A DNA stretch of 64,000 nucleotides from Mucilaginibacter inviolabilis. GTDB taxonomy: Bacteria; Bacteroidota; Bacteroidia; Sphingobacteriales; Sphingobacteriaceae. The notes under the pieces were generated by a model. That model made no database searches and had not been told where the DNA came from. It saw only the letters and a program-made list of their open reading frames with translations. The stretch spans positions 3,410,001 through 3,474,000 of the forward strand of contig NZ_JAANAT010000001.1 in NCBI RefSeq assembly GCF_011089895.1, in the 5' to 3' direction. Within the stretch, counting starts at the first letter, position 1, and each line of letters starts with the position of its first letter. The position numbers and the translations under genes are program-made. Positions 7,654 to 55,184 of the stretch are shown piece by piece.

Positions 7654-8490
7654 TTAAATCACCCGCTTAATTAATTCCACAGGATTAAAAAAATGATTCA
7701 GCGGGCCATTCCCCTTGCCCATTTGTCCATCTTTCCCGTTCAATATGGCCAGGTGTACGTATTGTTGCGCAAGGGTCACCGCATCTGGCAGTGATCTGCC
7801 TATAGCCAGGTAAGCGGCTATGGCCGATGACAGGGCGCATCCTGTACCACGGGTGTTTGGGGTATCGATTTTTTCAAACTTGTATTCCTGTATATTGCCG
7901 TCGTTTGTAAAATACAAGGAGGTTAATTGTGCGGCATCCAGGTGACCGCCCTTGAGCAGGACAGATCTTACTCCCAACTCCATGATCCTTTTACCGGCTA
8001 TTCGCATATCCGCTACAGTATGTACAGACATCCCGGTTAAAACCGCAGCTTCATCTAAATTAGGGGTAACAATAGTGGTTATGGGGAATAATTTTTTAAC
8101 GATGATTTCCACCGTACTATCTTCCAGGAGCCGGTGCCCGCTGGTTGATACCATGACCGGGTCAAATACCACCGGAACTTTAGGATACTGTTGTAAAGTA
8201 TTTACAATGACCTCAACCACATCAGCAGAATGCACCATGCCTATTTTGATAGCATCCGGAAAAACATCATCCAATAAGGCTTGCAACTGAGCTTCGACAA
8301 TAGTGGCGGGTATAGGATAAATGGACCTTACCCCGCAAGTATTTTGAACCGGGAGCGCAGTGAGCACCGAGGTAGCATAGCAGCCCAGTGCCGAGATGGT
8401 TTTGATATCGCCCTGCATACCGGCACCGCCGCTACCATCGAATCCTGCAATTGTTAAAACGGATGGATAGCCTTGTGTTTTTTTACTCAT
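7654..8490 (-). CDS. thiD: hydroxymethylpyrimidine/phosphomethylpyrimidine kinase ThiD
   Basis: The 278-residue ribokinase-fold kinase phosphorylates HMP and then HMP-P to HMP-PP for thiamine synthesis. GFDGSGGAGMQGD (near residue 16) binds the pyrimidine, VTPNLDEA and LLKGGH are family blocks, and RGTGCALSSAIAA holds the anion hole with Cys218. Length is normal for ThiD. No other thi gene lies nearby, so this is a detached pathway gene. Its upstream leader carries a TPP riboswitch, which independently confirms the role and predicts repression by thiamine pyrophosphate. Confidence 0.96.
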   Translation of the reverse strand: MSKKTQGYPSVLTIAGFDGSGGAGMQGDIKTISALGCYATSVLTALPVQNTCGVRSIYPIPATIVEAQLQALLDDVFPDAIKIGMVHSADVVEVIVNTLQQYPKVPVVFDPVMVSTSGHRLLEDSTVEIIVKKLFPITTIVTPNLDEAAVLTGMSVHTVADMRIAGKRIMELGVRSVLLKGGHLDAAQLTSLYFTNDGNIQEYKFEKIDTPNTRGTGCALSSAIAAYLAIGRSLPDAVTLAQQYVHLAILNGKDGQMGKGNGPLNHFFNPVELIKRVI

Positions 8491-9048: not shown

Positions 9049-9996
9049 ATGAGAAAAACATCCAATTCAATTACCAAAGCATCTATTGCTTTATTAGGCT
9101 TTTCACTGCTGTTTACAGCGGCCTGTAAAAAAGACCTTTCACCCACCCCGCAAGCCGACAACGCCTCATCAAAATTAAATACCAGCGCCATTGGCGTTAG
9201 CGGTCCTAAAGGCGTTTGCTACGTAGAGGTTAACAGTAACGATATCCGTAACGTGGGCAAGTATACCCTATCAACCGGGCAGCAGCTGTTTGATATTGCC
9301 ATTATCTTCGCGGCTAATATCAATTATAACACCACCACCAAAAAGGCCGAGTTATTTTTTAATCCGCAGGTAACTAATGTATTGAGCAACAAAGCTACTT
9401 ACATACAAACACTGCAGGCCAAAGGCATTAAAGTAATGCTTTCTATTTTGGGCAATCACCAGGGTGCGGGTATCTCTAATTTCCCGAGCCAGCAGGCTGC
9501 CCAGGATTTTGCCCAGCTGCTCAGCAACGCCGTTACCACTTACGGCCTTGACGGTATCGACTTTGACGATGAGTATGCCGATTATGGCACCAACGGAACC
9601 GGACAACCTAATTCCAGTTCATTTGTTTACCTGGTAACCGCCTTGCGTCAGCTGATGCCAAACAAACTCATTTCTTTCTATTTTTATGGCCCTGCAGCAT
9701 CGCGCTTAAGCTATAACGGTGTAACCGTAGGCTCAAAAGTTAATTACAGCTGGAATGCTATTTATGGCTCTTATTCGGTACCAAACGTTCCGGGATTAGC
9801 TAAAAGCAATTTGGGTCCTGCGGCTATCGATATCCAAAGCACCAGCTCATCAACCGCGGCTTCACTGGCTACACAAACTGTTAATAACAGCTACGGTATT
9901 TACCTGTATTATAACCTGCCTAATACAGATGTACATACTTACTTAACCAGCGTTTCCAATGCGCTATATGGTAAAGCTACCGTGAAACAGCCCTAA
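9049..9996 (+). CDS. GH18 endo-beta-N-acetylglucosaminidase-like lipoprotein (1 of 6)
   Basis: The 315-residue product has an SPII signal with lipobox LFTAAC (Cys26) followed by Lys-Lys-Asp. The catalytic motif is DGIDFDDE (Asp168, Asp171, Asp173, Glu175) in the context YGLDGIDFDDEYADYG, very close to the Endo H active-site strand. SILGNHQGAGISNF is also Endo H-like. It probably cleaves the chitobiose core of N-glycans (EC 3.2.1.96) at the outer membrane or cell surface. There is no C-terminal extension. The next gene is a close paralogue 32 bases downstream, so the pair is a recent tandem duplication and is likely cotranscribed. Confidence 0.9.
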   Translation: MRKTSNSITKASIALLGFSLLFTAACKKDLSPTPQADNASSKLNTSAIGVSGPKGVCYVEVNSNDIRNVGKYTLSTGQQLFDIAIIFAANINYNTTTKKAELFFNPQVTNVLSNKATYIQTLQAKGIKVMLSILGNHQGAGISNFPSQQAAQDFAQLLSNAVTTYGLDGIDFDDEYADYGTNGTGQPNSSSFVYLVTALRQLMPNKLISFYFYGPAASRLSYNGVTVGSKVNYSWNAIYGSYSVPNVPGLAKSNLGPAAIDIQSTSSSTAASLATQTVNNSYGIYLYYNLPNTDVHTYLTSVSNALYGKATVKQP

Positions 9997-10028
9997 AGTT
10001 TACCCTTGAAAAACTAATAGAAACCGAC

Positions 10029-11267
10029 ATGAAAACATCTATCAACTTATTCTTTAACAGGACAGCCATTGCTTTATTAAGCTTTAGCCTGATGTTTACA
10101 GCAGCCTGTAAAAAAGACCTTACTCCTACTGCAAAAACAAACACCGCTTCCTCAAAACTGGGCACCAATGCTATTGGCGTTAGTGGCCCTAAAGGCGTTT
10201 GTTATGTGGAAGTGAACAATAACGATATCCTTAATGTAGGCAATTATACCCTGTCAACCGGGGAGCAGCTTTTTGATATCGGTATCATATTCGCGGCCAA
10301 TATTAATTATAACACCACTACCCAAAAGGCCGAGTTGTTTTTTAACCCGCAGGTAACCGCTGTATTAAATAATGCAGCCACCAAAATACAGCCATTACAG
10401 GCCAAAGGGATTAAGGTAATGCTGTCCATCCTGGGCAATCACCAGGGTGCCGGTATCTCTAACTTCCCGAGTCAGCAAGCCGCGCAGGATTTTGCACAAT
10501 TATTAGCCAACGCAGTAACAACTTATGGTCTTGACGGTATTGACTTTGATGATGAATACGCCGATTATGGTACCAACAATACCGGACAACCCAACTCCAG
10601 TTCGTTTGTTTACCTGGTAACCGCACTACGCCAGCTGATGCCTAATAAGCTGATCTCCTTTTACTTTATTGGCCCTGCTGCATCAAACTTAAGTTACAAC
10701 GGTGTAACCGTAGGCTCAAAAATTGATTATAGCTGGCAAGCTTACTATGGCAGCTATGGTGCCCCTAACGTACCGGGCCTGGCTAAAAGCAATTTAGGTC
10801 CTGCTGCTATTGATATCCAAAGCACCAGCGCATCAACTGCTGCATCATTGGCTACACAAACGGTTAGTGATGGTTATGGCATCTACCTGTACTATAACCT
10901 GCCTAATGCCGATTCGCACACTTACCTGAGCAATGTATCTAACGCGCTATATGGTAAAGCAACGGTGTTTGGCAGCGGCGGCACTACACCACCGGCTACC
11001 GGTGTTACTTTTTACCAGGATATCAATTATGGTGGAACCGCCACCAGCACTATAGCCAAAGGCAATTATACCTTATCACAGTTGCAGGCTTTAGGCTTTG
11101 TGAACGACTGGGCATCATCGGTAAAAATACCTTCGGGATGGACAGTGACCATGTACAGCGATGATAATTTTACCGGTACATCCTGGACGTTAACCGCCAA
11201 CACTGCCAATTTCACCACCTTGTCGCCCAATGCTAACGATGTGGTAAGTTCTGTTAAAATTCAATAA
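10029..11267 (+). CDS. GH18 endoglycosidase-like lipoprotein with beta/gamma-crystallin domain (2 of 6)
   Basis: The 412-residue product has its lipobox Cys at 27. The catalytic domain is nearly the same as in the preceding gene, with DGIDFDDE ending at Glu176. After a GSGGTTPPATG linker, residues 326-412 form a beta/gamma-crystallin domain with repeated FYQD.NYGG and MYSDDNFTG strands. It contains two calcium-site motifs, NDWASS and NDVVSS (consensus N/D-N/D-x-x-S/T-S). The crystallin module is absent from gene 1 but present in genes 3 and 4. The likely role is N-glycan release, with the extra domain adding calcium-stabilised binding or stability; the latter is inference. Confidence 0.9.
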   Translation: MKTSINLFFNRTAIALLSFSLMFTAACKKDLTPTAKTNTASSKLGTNAIGVSGPKGVCYVEVNNNDILNVGNYTLSTGEQLFDIGIIFAANINYNTTTQKAELFFNPQVTAVLNNAATKIQPLQAKGIKVMLSILGNHQGAGISNFPSQQAAQDFAQLLANAVTTYGLDGIDFDDEYADYGTNNTGQPNSSSFVYLVTALRQLMPNKLISFYFIGPAASNLSYNGVTVGSKIDYSWQAYYGSYGAPNVPGLAKSNLGPAAIDIQSTSASTAASLATQTVSDGYGIYLYYNLPNADSHTYLSNVSNALYGKATVFGSGGTTPPATGVTFYQDINYGGTATSTIAKGNYTLSQLQALGFVNDWASSVKIPSGWTVTMYSDDNFTGTSWTLTANTANFTTLSPNANDVVSSVKIQ

Positions 11268-11281
11268 TCGAATAAGAATTA

Positions 11282-11350
11282 AGAGTCAAGAATCAAGACA
11301 TAAGTGAAATGATGTATGATCATTTTCCAGGGCTCTCGATTCTTGACTCT
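11282..11350. repeat. inverted repeat, TCAAGAATC family
   Basis: AGAGTCAAGAATC (11282-11294) is exactly reverse-complementary to 11338-11350, with a 43-base spacer. It fills the gap between GH18 genes 2 and 3. It belongs to the same arm family as elements near 18542, 25596, 36691 and 56775. Confidence 0.8.
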
Positions 11351-11387
11351 ATCAACGCTCTATTTAACTGTTATTAAAAAACCTATT

Positions 11388-12719
11388 ATGAAAAAAAATG
11401 CTTTTTTAACGAGGGTAGGGTTGCCTATGCTCTGTATGTTGGCTCTTGCCTTTACTTCGTCCTGCAAAAAGGATAGTGGAAATTCCGCCGAAAAACTACA
11501 AACACTTGGCGCCTCCAAGAATAGTTTAAAAACACAGGCGGTCACTTCCAATGCCGACTTAATTGCTTACAAAAACAGTGTACATAAAATATTTGTAGGC
11601 TTTTTGGTAGGTGATGGTGCCGATCCTGCAGCCAGTTATAACCCAGCCAATGCACCGGACAGTACCGACTTTTTGGAGTTTTTTGCCGGGAATGATGCCA
11701 CACGATCACACTGGCGCGCTGCTCAGGCCAAGGGAACCAGGATAGTGGTGTGCCACTTTCTGCAGGATGCCTATTTTGATGGCTCTTCCAAGGATCCGGC
11801 TACGCCAACTTCAACCAAGACTGTTGCCAGTTCAACCAGCACTTATGATCATTGGTCGCAGGCGATGTATAACCAGCATATTGTAGCCGACTCTTTAGAT
11901 GGGATAGACCTGGATATAGAATCCGGAACTATCGACAATAAAAATGTAACCAGCAGCAGTTACCCCAATTTATTAAAATCGGTAGCCAAATGGTTCGGGC
12001 CAAACTCTACCTCGGCAGTTACCAAAAGCATGGGCAAAAAACCGGTATTTTTTTATGATACCGACGGATCTCTGGATAATAACAGTTTAACCGGCACCAA
12101 AAGCAATTATGACTATATATTATTCCAGTCTTATACTACCGGAAGCCATTACTGGAGCAGCAGTTCCTTCCCACTATCTTCGATAGCTTCTACTTATGGA
12201 TCGGATAAAACTATTTTGCTGGTTAACGGCGATAGCTTTAAACATGCCGATGGCACTGAAGATCAATCAGGCGGCGATGCTCAGGCAACATCCGATCTAT
12301 ACAATTATGCCACTAATTGGGCCAAAACCAACAAGGTTGCCGGTGTTGGCGCATATCGTATGAGCCGCGATTATAACCACACCCCGCCATTCATCGTTTC
12401 GAGGAACGCCATTCAACTGATGAACGGCAGCGGCAGCACCACGCCAACTACAGGAGTAACTTTTTATCAGAATACCAATTATGGCGGTACGGCTACCAGC
12501 CTGATACCTAAAGGTACCTATACCTTATCCCAATTACAGGCTTATGGTTTTGTGGATAACTGGGCATCATCGGTAAAAGTGCCATCGGGATGGACAGTGA
12601 TCATGTATACCAACGATAATTTTGGTGGTACATCCTGGACACGTACAGCAAACACGCCAGATTTCACCACCTTGTCGCCAAATGCCAATGATGTGGTAAC
12701 CTCGGTTAAAATTCAGTGA
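11388..12719 (+). CDS. GH18 endoglycosidase-like lipoprotein with beta/gamma-crystallin domain (3 of 6)
   Basis: The 443-residue product has lipobox FTSSC (Cys26). The catalytic motif is DGIDLDIE (Asp171, Asp174, Asp176, Glu178), the DxxDxDxE form seen in Endo F-type enzymes rather than the Endo H-type DFDDE of genes 1-2. A C-terminal crystallin domain (about 358-443) carries DNWASS and NDVVTS calcium motifs. The frame is open from 11316, but the ATG at 11388 opens the signal peptide and is chosen. The upstream codons lie in a dispersed inverted repeat. The coding end is part of an 89-bp direct duplication continuing downstream. Confidence 0.88.
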   Translation: MKKNAFLTRVGLPMLCMLALAFTSSCKKDSGNSAEKLQTLGASKNSLKTQAVTSNADLIAYKNSVHKIFVGFLVGDGADPAASYNPANAPDSTDFLEFFAGNDATRSHWRAAQAKGTRIVVCHFLQDAYFDGSSKDPATPTSTKTVASSTSTYDHWSQAMYNQHIVADSLDGIDLDIESGTIDNKNVTSSSYPNLLKSVAKWFGPNSTSAVTKSMGKKPVFFYDTDGSLDNNSLTGTKSNYDYILFQSYTTGSHYWSSSSFPLSSIASTYGSDKTILLVNGDSFKHADGTEDQSGGDAQATSDLYNYATNWAKTNKVAGVGAYRMSRDYNHTPPFIVSRNAIQLMNGSGSTTPTTGVTFYQNTNYGGTATSLIPKGTYTLSQLQAYGFVDNWASSVKVPSGWTVIMYTNDNFGGTSWTRTANTPDFTTLSPNANDVVTSVKIQ

Positions 12720-12882
12720 TCTGAACTCTTTTTTGAGAATAAGGATCTACGAAATAAATAATTAGCTAAAGAAGGAGTCTCACCCTTCTTTGTGTTAAAA
12801 TTCAATGATCTGAACTCCTCTTTGGGAGTAAAGATCTACGAAATAAATAATGGCCAAAGAAGGAGTCTCACCCTTCTTTGGC
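12705..12882 (+). repeat. 89-bp direct duplication spanning a gene end and terminator
   Basis: The sequence from GTTAAAATTCAGTGATCTGA (12705) recurs at 12794 with few changes, including the last codons and stop of GH18 gene 3. Each copy has an AAAGAAGG/CCTTCTTT hairpin (12768-12791 and 12856-12879). In copy 2 the stem extends to 11 perfect bp (12853-12863 with 12872-12882) followed by TAATTATTCTTTT, a plausible intrinsic terminator. Confidence 0.85.
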
Positions 12883-12975
12883 TAATTATTCTTTTGGAAA
12901 AAGTTCCTATACAATCTGCCTGTTAATATTTATGAATCAATTTTATTAAACATAAACCCTTTAAAAGCCCTCATT

Positions 12976-14289
12976 ATGAAAAAAAAGTTATTCTCCCTTA
13001 AAACCGGTCTTTTTATGCTCGGCATATCGGCCCTTGCTTGTACCCAATCCTGTAAAAAAGATAATAGCGGTAACGCGGCTTCCAAATTACAAACGGCAGC
13101 AGTATCCAAAAACAACCTCAGTACGCAGGCTACTTCAAATGCCGATTTAATTGCTTATAAAAACAGCGCCCACGAGATTACAGCCGGCTTTTTCAGAACC
13201 TGGCGCGACAGAACCGTTTCCGGGAATGCCAATGACCCGATCATGACCGACCTGCCCGACAGCCTGGATATAGCTATTGTTTTTACTGATTATACCCCTC
13301 CCAGCTCCCCTTACTGGACAGCTTTAAAAAATACTTACATACCGGCCTTACACGCTAAGGGCACCAAAGTACTTTATACCGGTAGCCTCGCTATCCCTGC
13401 AGGGGTAACCCATGATGCTGCGGGTTATGCCACTACAGCAAAAATGATCATGGATAGTACCATTAATAAATATGGTTTAGATGGGTATGATATCGACATT
13501 GAAAGCAACCCGTCCGGAACTACCTTAACAGATATGGCAGGCGTTTATAATGCGCTTTCTGCCTACCTCGGTCCAAAATCCGGAACCGGCAAGCTGCTCA
13601 CCTTTGATACCAACCAAACAGGCAGCAATAGCCTTTTCCAACAGGTATATGCCGATATAAGCTACGTTTTCCTGCAGGCATATGGCAGGGGCGCAAGTAC
13701 CTTGCAAAGTACCTGGAGTACTTTTTCGTCGCGAATCAGCTCTACACAATTTGTGGTTGGGTTTTCATTTTATGAAGAAAACGGTTACCCAAGCAATTAC
13801 TGGGATGATGTTATTTATCCGCAAAATGGAACAGGTCGCGCTTATGATTATGCCCGTTGGGAACCTACCTCAGGTAAAAAAGGAGGAACCTTTGGTTACG
13901 CCATTGACCGCGATGCGCCACTTACATCACAACATGACAATACCATTAGAACACCAAATTTCAGAGTAACCAATGACCTCATCAAGATCATGAATCCCGT
14001 TGCTGGTGGCGGGACCACTACAGGTGTAGTTTTTTACCAGAATTCGAGCTATGGCGGCACGGCTACCCAAAAAATAGCCAAAGGCACTTATACCCTGGCA
14101 CAACTGCAGGCCAAAGGCTTTGTAGACAATTGGGCATCATCGGTACAAATACCATCCGGCTGGACGGTGATCATGTATGCCAATGACAATTTTGGTGGTA
14201 CCTCCTGGACGCTTACTGCCAATAACAGTTGGTTTGGTGCCCTATCGCCAAGTGCCAATGATGTAGTGACCTCTGTTAAAATTCAATAA
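12976..14289 (+). CDS. GH18 endoglycosidase-like lipoprotein with beta/gamma-crystallin domain (4 of 6)
   Basis: The 437-residue product has an N-terminal hydrophobic signal ending CTQSC. Cys26 is the likely lipidated residue, although the -3 position is unusual. The catalytic motif is DGYDIDIE (Asp169, Asp172, Asp174, Glu176), followed by SNPSGTTLTDMAGVYNAL. The C-terminal domain (about 351-437) is a beta/gamma crystallin with DNWASS and NDVVTS. The catalytic domain closely matches gene 6, which lacks the crystallin part. The gene sits behind its own terminator-like duplication, so it may have a separate promoter. Confidence 0.88.
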   Translation: MKKKLFSLKTGLFMLGISALACTQSCKKDNSGNAASKLQTAAVSKNNLSTQATSNADLIAYKNSAHEITAGFFRTWRDRTVSGNANDPIMTDLPDSLDIAIVFTDYTPPSSPYWTALKNTYIPALHAKGTKVLYTGSLAIPAGVTHDAAGYATTAKMIMDSTINKYGLDGYDIDIESNPSGTTLTDMAGVYNALSAYLGPKSGTGKLLTFDTNQTGSNSLFQQVYADISYVFLQAYGRGASTLQSTWSTFSSRISSTQFVVGFSFYEENGYPSNYWDDVIYPQNGTGRAYDYARWEPTSGKKGGTFGYAIDRDAPLTSQHDNTIRTPNFRVTNDLIKIMNPVAGGGTTTGVVFYQNSSYGGTATQKIAKGTYTLAQLQAKGFVDNWASSVQIPSGWTVIMYANDNFGGTSWTLTANNSWFGALSPSANDVVTSVKIQ

Positions 14290-14324
14290 TCAATAATTTA
14301 TTATCCGACACGGTTAAACAACTT

Positions 14325-14354
14325 ATAAGAACTCACCTTCGGGTGGGTTCTTAT
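14325..14354 (+). terminator. 13-bp hairpin with UUCG tetraloop
   Basis: ATAAGAACTCACC (14325-14337) pairs with GGTGGGTTCTTAT (14342-14354) across a TTCG loop, with one G-U pair. UUCG makes this very stable. It lies 36 bases after GH18 gene 4. No T-run follows, so it may stabilise the mRNA end rather than terminate. Confidence 0.6.
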
Positions 14355-14410
14355 GAAAACGATTAGTGCACTAAAACTCCAATTACTATTTACCCATCTA
14401 TCAAAAATCT

Positions 14411-15388
14411 ATGAAAATGAATTCAGTAAAAAAGTTAAACCAGGCTTGTAAACCAGGCCTTGTATTAGCAGGCCTGGCGTTGCTATTTTCTGCCGGTTGT
14501 AAAAAATCAGAACAGTTATCCCCGGCATCCGGTAATTCAAACACTACTGTAGCACGTGCTGTTAATTCAACGGCCGTTACTGCCGGTCCTCCTTACAAGG
14601 TTGCTTATTACGCTTTTGATAACGGCAGTGTTTCGTTACTGCAGTGTACGCAAAGCGCCAATGTGATGGTATTGTTTGAGGGTACCCCATGGCAAATTGC
14701 CGATTCAACCCATTATGATCCCAACCATAACGGCATCATGCTGAGCAACACTTACAAATCATACAAAGCCATTATGGCCGATGTAAGAACGCTGCAAGGC
14801 AGAGGCGTTAAGGTACTGATGAATATTGATGATGCGGCCTCATGGAGCACCACAACACCCTTTACCAATAGCGCCGGTACTAAATTAACCTATACTCAAT
14901 TTGCAGCGTTTGTTAAACAAATTGTAATTGACTCATTGCATCTTGACGGCATTGCTTTGGATATAGAACACGGTGCAACAGTAAATACAAACTATACCAA
15001 TATGCTGAAAGCTCTCGGCGGATACTTCGGGCCAAAATCATCAAACACCGCTACCATCTACACAGCAGCCATATACAGCGGAGCGCCAGAAGGTAATGCC
15101 ATAGGCCAAAGCGCCAGCATGGCGGCCTACTTTAATTTTGTGGAGGATATGGGCTATTTCTCTGATAACACATCAAGGTTTAATCAATGGGCCAAATACA
15201 TAGGCAATGCCAAAACAATGATTGGCGTATCATCCCAATATAACACCTTGACCAATGCCGAAGCAGCAGCCGCATGGCAGCCTAAAACAGGCGGTGCTAA
15301 AGCAGGAATTATGGTTTATGCGGCAAATGGTGCGGGTCAGGCTTATACCGATTCTGTTTTTGCCCATCTGAGCCCTATTAAACCTTAA
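14411..15388 (+). CDS. divergent GH18-like lipoprotein with altered catalytic motif (5 of 6)
   Basis: The 325-residue product has lipobox LFSAGC (Cys30). The GH18 strand reads LDGIALDIEHG: Asp179, Asp184 and Glu186 are kept, but the second Asp of DxxDxDxE is Ala182. The acid/base Glu and the Asp two residues before it are the most critical catalytic residues in GH18, so activity is possible but likely changed. The rest is only distantly like the neighbours, and no crystallin domain is present. A binding-only or altered-specificity role are both open. It is followed by a 9-bp hairpin. Confidence 0.8.
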   Translation: MKMNSVKKLNQACKPGLVLAGLALLFSAGCKKSEQLSPASGNSNTTVARAVNSTAVTAGPPYKVAYYAFDNGSVSLLQCTQSANVMVLFEGTPWQIADSTHYDPNHNGIMLSNTYKSYKAIMADVRTLQGRGVKVLMNIDDAASWSTTTPFTNSAGTKLTYTQFAAFVKQIVIDSLHLDGIALDIEHGATVNTNYTNMLKALGGYFGPKSSNTATIYTAAIYSGAPEGNAIGQSASMAAYFNFVEDMGYFSDNTSRFNQWAKYIGNAKTMIGVSSQYNTLTNAEAAAAWQPKTGGAKAGIMVYAANGAGQAYTDSVFAHLSPIKP

Positions 15389-15401
15389 TAAGCAGCTTTT
15401 A

Positions 15402-15433
15402 TATCAGGGCTCTTTTCAGAAAGTGCCCTGATA
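15402..15433 (+). terminator. hairpin after GH18 gene 5
   Basis: TATCAGGGC (15402-15410) is exactly complementary to GCCCTGATA (15425-15433), 13 bases past the stop. The following sequence is A/T rich without a T-run. Confidence 0.5.
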
Positions 15434-15489
15434 CATTATAAAACAATAAAACAAATTCACCAAATATAAACCCTTCAAAAAACCAAATT

Positions 15490-16497
15490 ATGAAAAGAAA
15501 CACATCTTCATTAAAAGCCGGTCTTTTGCTGATTGGCCTTTCAGCTCTGTTCGCAACCCAGGCTTGTAAAAAGAATTCTGGAAACACTGTCTCAAAATCA
15601 CCAACTACAGGTGCATCTAAAAATGGGCTTACAACCATGGCTTCAAACGCCGACCTGATTGCTTATAAAGCCACAAAACACGAAATTAGCGCAGGCTTTT
15701 ACCGTGTACAGGGCCCTTGTTATGGGCCTGGCGTAAATGGCTCTAACTTTTCATTGGTACCCGATAGTCTCGACGTACTTATCCTTTTTTGTTTTGACAA
15801 AACATCGCCTATTGCCAGCAGCGTCCCGGCATGGGTTAGCTCGTTACATGCCAAAGGCACCAAAGTAATTGTCACAGGCAACCTGAATATTCCGTCGGGC
15901 GTACCACATACTACCGCAGGGTACCAAACAACCGCTAAAATGATCATGGATAGTGTGGTTAACAAATACGGTTTGGATGGCTATGATATTGATGTGGAAA
16001 GCAACCCATCGGGCACAACCCTCACCGACATGGCTGGGGTTTACACTGCGCTTTCGGCTTACCTGGGTCCAAAATCGGGCACCGGAAAACTGCTTACCTT
16101 TGATACCAACCAAACCGGCACCAACAGTCTTTTCAGAAAAGTGTATACCCTGATCGACTTTGTTTGGTTACAGGCTTATGGCAGAGGCTCATCTACCTTA
16201 CAAGGCACATGGAACACGTTTAAATCTTATATTGCTTCAACTCAGTTTGTACCCGGATTTTCATTTTATGAAGAAAACGGTTACCCAAGCAATTATTGGG
16301 ATGATGTTACCTACCCGGAAAATGGTACAGGTCGAGCCTATGATTATGCCCGTTGGGAGCCAACAACTGGCAAAAAAGGCGGAGTATTTGGTTATGCTAT
16401 TGACCGCGACGCGCCGCTAACCTCGATGCATGACAACACACTCCGTGTTCCTGATTACAAAGTAACCAAAGATCTGATCAAGATCATGAACCCATAA
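15490..16497 (+). CDS. GH18 endoglycosidase-like lipoprotein (6 of 6)
   Basis: The 335-residue product has lipobox FATQAC (Cys26) followed by Lys-Lys-Asn. The catalytic motif is DGYDIDVE (Asp163, Asp166, Asp168, Glu170). It aligns almost residue for residue with gene 4 over the catalytic domain, including SNPSGTTLTDMAGVY and FSFYEENGYPSNYWDDV, but it ends at DLIKIMNP without the crystallin domain. It is therefore a tandem copy with domain loss, or gene 4 gained the module. It ends the GH18 run at a strong terminator. Confidence 0.9.
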   Translation: MKRNTSSLKAGLLLIGLSALFATQACKKNSGNTVSKSPTTGASKNGLTTMASNADLIAYKATKHEISAGFYRVQGPCYGPGVNGSNFSLVPDSLDVLILFCFDKTSPIASSVPAWVSSLHAKGTKVIVTGNLNIPSGVPHTTAGYQTTAKMIMDSVVNKYGLDGYDIDVESNPSGTTLTDMAGVYTALSAYLGPKSGTGKLLTFDTNQTGTNSLFRKVYTLIDFVWLQAYGRGSSTLQGTWNTFKSYIASTQFVPGFSFYEENGYPSNYWDDVTYPENGTGRAYDYARWEPTTGKKGGVFGYAIDRDAPLTSMHDNTLRVPDYKVTKDLIKIMNP

Positions 16498-48899: not shown

Positions 48900-50060
48900 A
48901 TGCGCTTAGCCATTATAACCACCCACCCAGTACAATACTATGCCCCTGTTTTTAAATTGCTGGCTGAAAGCCGGAGCATAGAGATCAGGGTATTTTATAC
49001 CTGGGGCGAAAAAGCCATGGAAAAATTTGATCCCGGTTTTGGGCAAAAAGTTGACTGGGATATCCCGCTGCTGCAAGGGTATAATTTTGAATGGGTAACC
49101 AACACCGCATCAGACCCTGGTACACATCATCGTAACGGGATCATTAATCCCGGCTTGATCAATCAGATAAACCAATGGCAGCCCAATGCTTTATTGGTAT
49201 TTGGCTGGGCCTTCAACAGTCACTTAAAAGCTATTCGTTATTATCACCATAAACTACCCGTATATTTCAGGGGCGACTCCACCCTGCTCGATATAAAACC
49301 GGGTATCCGTGCGTTTTTAAGATCTGTTTTTTTAAAATGGGTTTACCGGCACGTTGATCATGCTTTTTATGTGGGGGTCAACAGCAAAACTTATTTTAAA
49401 AAATACGGACTAACTGATCAGCAATTAACCTTTGCTCCGCACGCCATAGATAACGAAAGATTTAACATCAACAGAAATCAGGAAGCTTTAAAGCTAAGGC
49501 AAAGCCTGGGTGTTACCGAAGAGGATACCCTGATACTTTTTGCAGGCAAGTTTGAGGATAAAAAATCACCACAATTACTCATCGACGCTTTTTTGGCTTT
49601 AAATAAACCAGCTGCTCATTTATTACTGGTGGGAAGCGGTATTTTAGAGATTCCCTTAAAAACAAGAGCCAGCATGAATAAGCGGATTCATTTTATGGAT
49701 TTCCAAAATCAATCAATCATGCCGGTGGTATATCTGGCGGCTGATCTTTTTTGCCTGCCATCCAAAGGTCCCGGCGAAACATGGGGACTTGCTGTAAACG
49801 AGGCCATGGCAGCTGGTACACCCGTGCTAGTATCTAATAAAGCAGGTTGTGCTGCCGATCTGGTTATACCAGGAATAACCGGTGATATTTTTGATTCGGA
49901 AAATTTATCGGATATTACCCAAAAGCTTGGCGCGCTTTTGAAAGACAAATCCAGATTGAATACTTTAGGCCTCAATGCTCAACATAAAATTGCCGACTGG
50001 AGCTTTGACAAGCAGGTAACTGCCATTTTAAATACCGTAAAGCATAACTATGCGAACTAA
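48900..50060 (+). CDS. family 4 glycosyltransferase
   Basis: The 386-residue GT-B enzyme has MRLAIITTHPVQYYAPVF, the hinge LILFAGKFEDKKSPQLLI and the donor site GPGETWGLAVNEAMAAGTPVLV. THPVQYYAP is typical of GT4 proteins in surface polysaccharide loci. Its last 11 bases overlap the ATG of the interrupted Wzy-like gene. Confidence 0.92.
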   Translation: MRLAIITTHPVQYYAPVFKLLAESRSIEIRVFYTWGEKAMEKFDPGFGQKVDWDIPLLQGYNFEWVTNTASDPGTHHRNGIINPGLINQINQWQPNALLVFGWAFNSHLKAIRYYHHKLPVYFRGDSTLLDIKPGIRAFLRSVFLKWVYRHVDHAFYVGVNSKTYFKKYGLTDQQLTFAPHAIDNERFNINRNQEALKLRQSLGVTEEDTLILFAGKFEDKKSPQLLIDAFLALNKPAAHLLLVGSGILEIPLKTRASMNKRIHFMDFQNQSIMPVVYLAADLFCLPSKGPGETWGLAVNEAMAAGTPVLVSNKAGCAADLVIPGITGDIFDSENLSDITQKLGALLKDKSRLNTLGLNAQHKIADWSFDKQVTAILNTVKHNYAN

Positions 50061-50169
50061 TCAAGCTCCGTTGGAGCGGTTTTTCATATTATTTTTACCC
50101 TGGGGGCTCTCCCTTTTATTTAAAAGCGACCCTGTGCTCTCTTATTTTATTGCCTGACTAGGTTCGTTT
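50050..50169 (+). pseudogene. severed N-terminal part of the Wzy-like polymerase gene
   Basis: An ATG at 50050, overlapping the previous gene by 11 bases, opens a frame of 35 sense codons (RTNQAPLERFFILFLPWGLS, then a second hydrophobic run ending SYFIA). It then meets TGA at 50155-50157. The same frame continues without a break as LGSFLIFWLTLSGWVKP into the polymerase. A TGG-to-TGA change at codon 36 inside a membrane helix is the simplest reading. The overlap and membrane helix show this is the true gene start. Confidence 0.75.
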
Positions 50170-51456
50170 TTGATATTCTGGCTTACATTAAGCGGATGGG
50201 TAAAACCCATACCTGCCGACAGAAGCATTGCAGGCCAGCTCATGCGCCCTATTTTTTTAGTCCAGATCATTTTTGCCGGATACATGGCCTGTACTTCCAT
50301 TTTTTATTTTATGGATGTAATGGGGTATGAAAACTTTGTAAAACCAGGCTATATTTTAGTCGACCATGAAAAACTGCTGCTCACGGCGCAATGCCAGCGC
50401 TATTATTGTTTGGGCCATGCTTCTCTTGTTTTAGGGATGCTCATCTTTATGGATTATCCGGCCCAAAAGATTTATCAGGCAGATACACAAAAACTGGCTA
50501 ATCTGCTCATGTTATTTGCTATGATTAGTTTTCCTGTATCTGTTTTGTTTTTAAAAGTACCGGGGCTATCACAGTTCTCCTATCAGTTTAATTCGCTCAG
50601 CTTCATTGCAGGTACATTGGCTTTGGCATTTGCCATCCCGCTCAAAAAAATTGGCAACACGCTGATATGCATCGGTTTTTACTGTTTTAATTTTTATCAG
50701 TCGCTCATCTCGGGCTTTAAAGAGCCTATTATCGTAAGCGTAATGGTATTAGGAATATTCCTGTATCCCAATTATAAAAAGGCAGTTACCTTTACTTTCA
50801 TCCCCCTATTACTGTTGTTATTTATTTTTTTGCCTACCTACAATCGTGTTTTCAGGCAAAATGCATGGGCAGGTAACAGCAATGCCAGCGAAGCCAGTCA
50901 ATTAGCTTTAGATGCTACCCTAAACAATGATGGCGAAGGTGATGATTCCAACTGGTCGTTTTTAGTGAATCGCCTAAGCGAAATAGATATGTTTACCCGT
51001 TTTGTACAATCAACCCCCAAACAGGTAGATTATTATGGTTTTACATTGCTTAAACAATCCGGCACGGCTATTATTCCACGGATATTCTGGCCCTCTAAAC
51101 CCATTACCGAAGAAATGATTATGGAACGGGTTTACAATGCCGGGGTTATTAACCGTTTTTCCAATGTATCGGCTAAACCTGCATTTATTGTGGATGCCTA
51201 TCTTTCGGGAGGAGCTTTAGGTATCATTTTATGTTTATTTGCCTACGGCGCCATCGCTCAGTTGATAGCGCTGCAGGCCGAGAAACTCTTTGGCGGATAT
51301 ATCCTGGGCACAGCGCTCATTTTTAGCGGCTTGTTTCAAATAATGTGGCGCGGACTTAGTTTTGAGTTTTTAATTAACAGTGTATTCTGGAGTTATATTA
51401 CCATGCTGATCATTCATAAAATACTTACAGCAACCCATATCCTTCAAAAGGTTTGA
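50170..51456 (+). CDS. Wzy-like polysaccharide polymerase, main part behind an in-frame stop
   Basis: From TTG at 50170 the frame encodes 428 residues with about ten membrane segments and a large extracytoplasmic loop (about residues 230-330: NRVFRQNAWAGNSNASE to GTAIIPRIFWPSKP). The PRIFWPSKP segment and topology suit O-antigen polymerase-like proteins. I recall an NCBI family label 'exosortase Y-associated Wzy-like protein', and an exosortase is four genes downstream, but the match is unverified. The first 40 codons of the full frame are upstream, cut by TGA at 50155. The end overlaps the next TTG start by four bases. Confidence 0.75.
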   Translation: MIFWLTLSGWVKPIPADRSIAGQLMRPIFLVQIIFAGYMACTSIFYFMDVMGYENFVKPGYILVDHEKLLLTAQCQRYYCLGHASLVLGMLIFMDYPAQKIYQADTQKLANLLMLFAMISFPVSVLFLKVPGLSQFSYQFNSLSFIAGTLALAFAIPLKKIGNTLICIGFYCFNFYQSLISGFKEPIIVSVMVLGIFLYPNYKKAVTFTFIPLLLLLFIFLPTYNRVFRQNAWAGNSNASEASQLALDATLNNDGEGDDSNWSFLVNRLSEIDMFTRFVQSTPKQVDYYGFTLLKQSGTAIIPRIFWPSKPITEEMIMERVYNAGVINRFSNVSAKPAFIVDAYLSGGALGIILCLFAYGAIAQLIALQAEKLFGGYILGTALIFSGLFQIMWRGLSFEFLINSVFWSYITMLIIHKILTATHILQKV

Positions 51457-54088: not shown

Positions 54089-54631
54089 ATGAAAAACCCG
54101 GCAATCAAATTTATAGTTACCTTTCTTTTTCTGTTCCTGCTGTTTTATTACTTCAATTTACTGTTTCTGGGCATTACCAGTCCCGGAAATTATTACAGCC
54201 ACTTTTTAGCGATAAATTTTAATTATATACAATGGTTGCGCTCACTTTTACTATCAGGCAGCGCCTTAATACTTAGGGCATTTGGTTTTGATGTAATTTA
54301 CAACCATATCGATTTGTTGGTAGCGGGTAAAGGTACTATCAGATTAGCTTATGATTGCCTGGGCCTAGGGGTGATGAGCTTCTTTACAGCCTTTGTAATT
54401 GCCTATCCTAAAAAACTAAGCTCAAAGCTTTGGTTTCTGATTTCAGGACTATTAGGTATCCAGTTTTTAAACATTATCCGCTTTGTGCTGTTAGCCTTGT
54501 TTTGGAGTAAAAAAACAAACCAGGTAATTGATCATCATACTATCTTTAATATTATTATCTACATACTGATTATGATCTGTCTTTATTTTTGGGTTAAAAG
54601 TAAAGACCGTACCATTAACCATCATGCATAA
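54089..54631 (+). CDS. exosortase family protein
   Basis: The 180-residue polytopic protein starts from ATG at 54089 and has five to six membrane helices. It carries the exosortase/archaeosortase Cys-Arg-His set: YDCLGLGVMS (Cys90), LNIIRFVLL (Arg131) and DHHTIFN (His149 or His150). These enzymes cleave a C-terminal tripartite signal and attach the protein to a carrier or glycan. Its place at the end of a polysaccharide locus, near a Wzy-like gene and GTs, agrees with the Bacteroidota XrtY-type setting as I recall it. No PEP-CTERM-like target is visible in this window. The end overlaps the acyltransferase start by 8 bases. Confidence 0.85.
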   Translation: MKNPAIKFIVTFLFLFLLFYYFNLLFLGITSPGNYYSHFLAINFNYIQWLRSLLLSGSALILRAFGFDVIYNHIDLLVAGKGTIRLAYDCLGLGVMSFFTAFVIAYPKKLSSKLWFLISGLLGIQFLNIIRFVLLALFWSKKTNQVIDHHTIFNIIIYILIMICLYFWVKSKDRTINHHA

Positions 54632-55184
54632 AACCGATCTATCTACCTATAACAATCATCCTTTTCATCCGGGGGGCAATGCTGTAAAAAGGTTATTGTG
54701 GTTTTATGTAAATGCTTTATTCTTTAAAACCAGCTTGTTACCCATCAGCGGGTTTAAGGTGTTTTTACTCCGGATATTTGGTGCAAAAGTTGGTAAAAAC
54801 GTAACTATTAAACCTTGTGTAAATATCAAATATCCCTGGCACCTGAGCATCGGCGATCAAAGCTGGATAGGTGAAAAGGCATGGATAGATAGTTTGGTTA
54901 CCATCAGCATCGGCGCCCATGTATGCCTGTCGCAGGGTGCTGTGTTACTCACCGGTAGTCATGATTATAAAAAAACAAGTTTTAACCTCATAACCCAATC
55001 ACTTATTATTGAAGATGGCGCCTGGATAGGTGCCGGCGCTATAGTAAATCTGGGCATTACAATTGCCAGTCACGCGGTACTAACCAGTGGCTCTGTGGCT
55101 ACCAAAAACCTCGAAGCGTACAGTATATACCAGGGGAACCCTGCCGTAAAGATCCGCGACCGTATTATCACACATCAACCCTAA
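54624..55184 (+). CDS. WcaF-type hexapeptide acetyltransferase
   Basis: The 186-residue left-handed beta-helix protein has KRLLWFYVNALFFKTSLLPI, then GAKVGKNVTIKP and repeated hexapeptides (HLSIGDQSWIGEKAWID, GAWIGAGAIVNLGITI), ending with SIYQGNPAVKIRDR. It resembles WcaF-type O-acetyltransferases of colanic-acid loci. It probably acetylates a sugar hydroxyl before polymer export, in addition to the MBOAT system. Confidence 0.92.
   Translation: MHKTDLSTYNNHPFHPGGNAVKRLLWFYVNALFFKTSLLPISGFKVFLLRIFGAKVGKNVTIKPCVNIKYPWHLSIGDQSWIGEKAWIDSLVTISIGAHVCLSQGAVLLTGSHDYKKTSFNLITQSLIIEDGAWIGAGAIVNLGITIASHAVLTSGSVATKNLEAYSIYQGNPAVKIRDRIITHQP

Follow-up and report, generated by a model that had tools for sequence, protein, structure and literature searches.

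In Porphyromonas gingivalis HG66, the wbpB gene carries a nonsense mutation, and a lost sugar was tied to that mutation by experiment (PMC4031482). The Mucilaginibacter polymerase gene described here resembles this case: in both, one premature stop interrupts a polysaccharide gene of a Bacteroidota strain, and relatives have intact copies. However, the sugar loss in HG66 was shown experimentally, whereas loss of the Mucilaginibacter polymerase is predicted from the sequence. Another comparable system is UGA read-through by a variant tRNA-Trp(CCA), and the paper describing it names the Hirsh UGA suppressor of tRNA-Trp as G24A (PMC13092985). Here, too, an in-frame UGA stands where relatives have UGG, and the tRNA-Trp carries A24. 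The third point of reference is NF046084, the family of exosortase Y (XrtY)-associated Wzy-like polymerases. The gene shares with this family a full-length profile match and the expected neighbors, XYAG1 and XrtY. However, the family members surveyed are mostly intact, and the Mucilaginibacter gene has a nonsense codon at an invariant Trp. The literature collection searched contained no paper that treats exosortase together with Mucilaginibacter, Sphingobacteriaceae, or Wzy in Bacteroidetes.

The window, a stretch of 64,000 nucleotides, comes from a 7.15-Mb genome in 13 contigs of Mucilaginibacter, a soil bacterium. The polymerase gene is part of an XrtY exopolysaccharide locus. The species is close to M. 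lappiensis, and M. lappiensis ATCC BAA-1855 is the nearest relative among the compared genomes. The genes of interest lie on the forward strand. Upstream of the polymerase is a GT4-type glycosyltransferase (48900 to 50060). Downstream are the XrtY-associated glycosyltransferase XYAG1 (NF046085; 51453 to 52589), exosortase Y (NF046083; 54083 to 54631), which is the sole XrtY of the genome, and a WcaF-type acetyltransferase (54624 to 55184). Both XYAG1 and exosortase Y score above their cutoffs, as expected for the neighborhood of an NF046084 gene. The locus also encodes many glycosyltransferases, a Wzz-type chain-length/kinase protein, an MBOAT acyltransferase, and an ABC-2 exporter with a Wzt_C ATPase. 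No second copy of the NF046084 family was found elsewhere in the genome, which has two unrelated Wzy_C genes far from the XrtY locus.

The polymerase frame runs from the ATG at 50050 to a final stop at 51454 to 51456 (gene, 50050 to 51456) and contains one internal stop in 468 codons, a TGA at codon 36 (50155 to 50157). The sequence-only reading had given the same frame and the same TGA, and all of its positions hold. It was also right that the ATG overlaps the upstream glycosyltransferase gene by 11 bases. From base composition, we estimate the chance of 432 open codons beyond the TGA at about 1e-11. The two remaining forward frames have 30 and 21 stops in that stretch, so the continuity of the polymerase frame is not due to chance. 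The read-through protein matches NF046084 over positions 3 to 471 of 472 with 753 bits, against a curated cutoff of 420 bits. Codons 1 to 35 (50050 to 50154) encode the family N terminus, that is, helix 1 and the start of helix 2, and this 35-residue piece alone matches profile positions 2 to 35 (E = 2.3e-6). The gene is therefore a broken member of the NF046084 family, with the TGA at codon 36 where a member would have an uninterrupted frame.

A Pfam search with the 428-residue frame that follows the TGA found no match at E values up to 1, including to the classical Wzy/WaaL family, Wzy_C (PF04932). Foldseek found no match to the polymerase model at E values up to 0.001. In a structure comparison, WaaL (7tpg_B) aligned over 266 residues with a Z score of 5.7 and an rmsd of 6.2, amid unrelated rows of similar Z. 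The top ranks of the fold search were complex I and other membrane proteins, probably because of common helix packing, and the Src kinase matches in a profile search of PDB sequences were set aside as chance matches. The name "Wzy-like" follows the annotation, and polymerization of lipid-linked repeat units is a putative function.

We then asked what codon 36 had been. In a codon alignment, it is TGG in 47 of 47 orthologues, including that of M. lappiensis, whose protein is 97% identical. In an alignment of 18 proteins with identities down to 60%, every sequence has W36; this set consists of 17 relatives and the window's own protein, with its codon read as Trp, and partly overlaps the 47 orthologues. 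All 47 orthologues also start upstream and have the N-terminal helix. These results indicate that the change from TGG to TGA, as proposed earlier from the letters of the window, arose on this genome's own branch. They also reject a natural later start, which the earlier reading had named as one finding that would overturn it. The AlphaFold model of the polymerase has helices at residues 8 to 23 and 28 to 47, and Trp36 lies with high confidence midway along the second membrane helix (pLDDT 92 for block 31 to 40), in agreement with the continuous helix that had been proposed around the stop. A second G-to-A change, at 50160, lies 3 bases past the nonsense change. It is synonymous (CTG to CTA) and absent from the nearest relatives, and its closeness to the TGA is probably a coincidence.

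We consider a recent point mutation at the invariant Trp36 codon, one that probably abolishes or greatly reduces the polymerase, to be the best explanation, with a probability of roughly 0.7. The age of the stop can be judged from the rest of the gene. Compared with M. lappiensis, the polymerase has a dN of 0.015, a dS of 0.454, and a dN/dS of 0.033, the lowest among 17 genes compared in the region. Seven of the 44 polarized base changes on the genome's own branch are missense, compared with 4 of 23 on the M. lappiensis branch; slightly different outgroup rules were used for the two branches, so this is a rough comparison only. There is no missense excess in these counts, and thus no sign in the sequence of relaxed constraint on the own branch. 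No second lesion was found in the polymerase gene. An old pseudogene is therefore rejected. Set against the divergence from M. lappiensis, the stop is very recent, unless it is a base-call error. In collinear orthologues of 51 matching M. lappiensis open reading frames, the polymerase TGA is the only in-frame stop. A short open reading frame with two stops, on the strand opposite to the gene at 7654 to 8490, was taken as spurious.

If the true base is G, the gene is intact and the A is an assembly or base-call error. The polymerase gene cannot be told from a working one by its conservation, which would fit such an error equally well, as it would fit a full-length product made by leakage. The TGA is seen without a second lesion and in one genome only, and the relatives have a CCTGG motif at the site; CCTGG motifs are miscalled by some long-read methods. 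The whole genome shows the same base at 50157, but it is the same assembly and gives no independent evidence. However, the contigs that carry the rRNA operons are only 5.0 and 5.8 kb long, which points to a short-read assembly, and such assemblies seldom contain single-base substitution errors. Orthologues across the window lack the flagged frameshifts that uncorrected long reads would give, and the remaining CCWGG sites of the polymerase gene are kept. An error at this base is thus unlikely.

Translation might instead restart after the TGA. An open frame of 428 amino acids begins at TTG 50170 (50170 to 51456), 12 bases past the TGA and within reach of a terminating ribosome. It covers profile positions 41 to 471 with 697 bits, which is still above the NF046084 cutoff, so a working polymerase of 428 residues could be imagined. 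However, all of the orthologues use the upstream start, and in relatives the TTG simply encodes an internal Leu, with CTG or CTT in its place in some. The 20 bases upstream of the TTG are 10% A, whereas 44 plus-strand gene starts average 39%, so the site is weakly placed for reinitiation. Judged by the model, helix 1 and half of helix 2 would be missing from the shortened product. Reinitiation should also free codons 1 to 35 from constraint. These differ from M. lappiensis by 2 nonsynonymous and 4 synonymous codons, too few to tell, and both replacements (L22 and S26) also occur in the intact orthologue of another genome (G077). We regard a working polymerase made by restart as quite improbable.

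We give the same low weight to decoding of the TGA as tryptophan, by near-cognate tRNA-Trp(CCA), at a level sufficient for some full-length polymerase. The base after the TGA is C, and TGA followed by C is reported to be a weak terminator in Escherichia coli. The sole tRNA-Trp(CCA) of the genome (G000:C1:3286138-3286209) carries A24 in its D stem, paired with U11, which is the Hirsh UGA suppressor state. However, at least 33 further genomes of the family have the identical 72-base tRNA-Trp, so A24 is a family trait and not an adaptation of the strain. The tRNA also differs from the variant described in PMC13092985 in having a 5-bp anticodon stem with G27-U43 as the top pair, besides being common across the family, and conserved UGA sites are not known in Mucilaginibacter. 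TGA still terminates 10 of the 56 genes in the window, and an in-frame TGA at codon 36 is found in 0 of 47 orthologues, which argues against a conserved recoding site. The region from 50121 to 50200 is predicted to fold, and a role for this fold has no support from shuffle tests or conservation. Some basal UGA leakage may occur at codon 36. It would be a long shot, in our view, that the A24 tRNA-Trp(CCA) of Sphingobacteriaceae leaks UGA-C enough to make nonsense mutations at Trp codons partly silent, with the polymerase still produced in smaller and perhaps adjustable amounts. Given the family-wide A24, UGA leakage in Sphingobacteriaceae nevertheless seems worth measuring.

A programmed sense codon, either selenocysteine or a reassigned TGA, would account for the continuous frame and for nothing else. 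The relatives have Trp and not Cys at the site, and TGA serves as a normal stop in the window, as noted above. The genome has no tRNA-Sec above the gathering score and no SelB above the curated cutoff, and none of its ARAGORN-confirmed tRNA genes has a UCA anticodon. Both forms of programmed decoding are rejected, their likelihood being close to nil. The stop is best read as a well-defined, ordinary nonsense mutation that probably removes function from this one genome's copy, and nothing points to special decoding. Of the four consequences that had been proposed, loss of the full-length polymerase is the best supported, and reinitiation and read-through found no positive support.

With the nonsense mutation as the preferred reading, the following course is proposed. 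In the XrtY-associated Wzy-like polymerase gene, a point mutation turned the invariant TGG into TGA, probably too recently for further decay of the gene. Most ribosomes would stop after 35 residues, full-length polymerase would be scarce or absent, and the polysaccharide linked to XrtY would remain short or unpolymerized. The sequenced isolate most likely lacks this polymer or makes far less of it. The TTG start of XYAG1 overlaps the stop codon of the polymerase (51453 to 51456), so loss of polymerase translation could also lower expression of this coupled downstream gene by polarity.

This reading explains the annotation oddity at the polymerase gene. It also offers a probable null allele, of natural origin, for an uncharacterized XrtY-associated polymerase, which can be compared with M. 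lappiensis, and a naturally occurring site well suited to measurements of UGA leakage in Bacteroidota. If the change is a plain nonsense mutation, nothing general changes. Comparable polymerase losses appear, from the sequences, to recur in the genus. A polymerase match is absent from 45 of 149 congeneric genomes, and two further lesions, judged to be independent, are a TAA replacing the conserved E225 (G106) and a frame-shifted copy (G027). Several genomes have XrtY-associated Wzy-like genes in tandem, in two or three copies (G134:C40:102203-106966; also G159, G178, and G201).

Two further features of the genome were noted. The window contains six related lipoprotein-like genes in tandem (9049 to 16497), several with a repeated C-terminal domain, and their order and similarity are unlike those in M. 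lappiensis. In addition, a tRNA-Leu(TAA)/tRNA-Gly(GCC) pair occurs twice, with equal scores and 15,014 bases apart (G000:C4:204690-204987 and 219704-220001), which suggests a duplicated or inserted segment.
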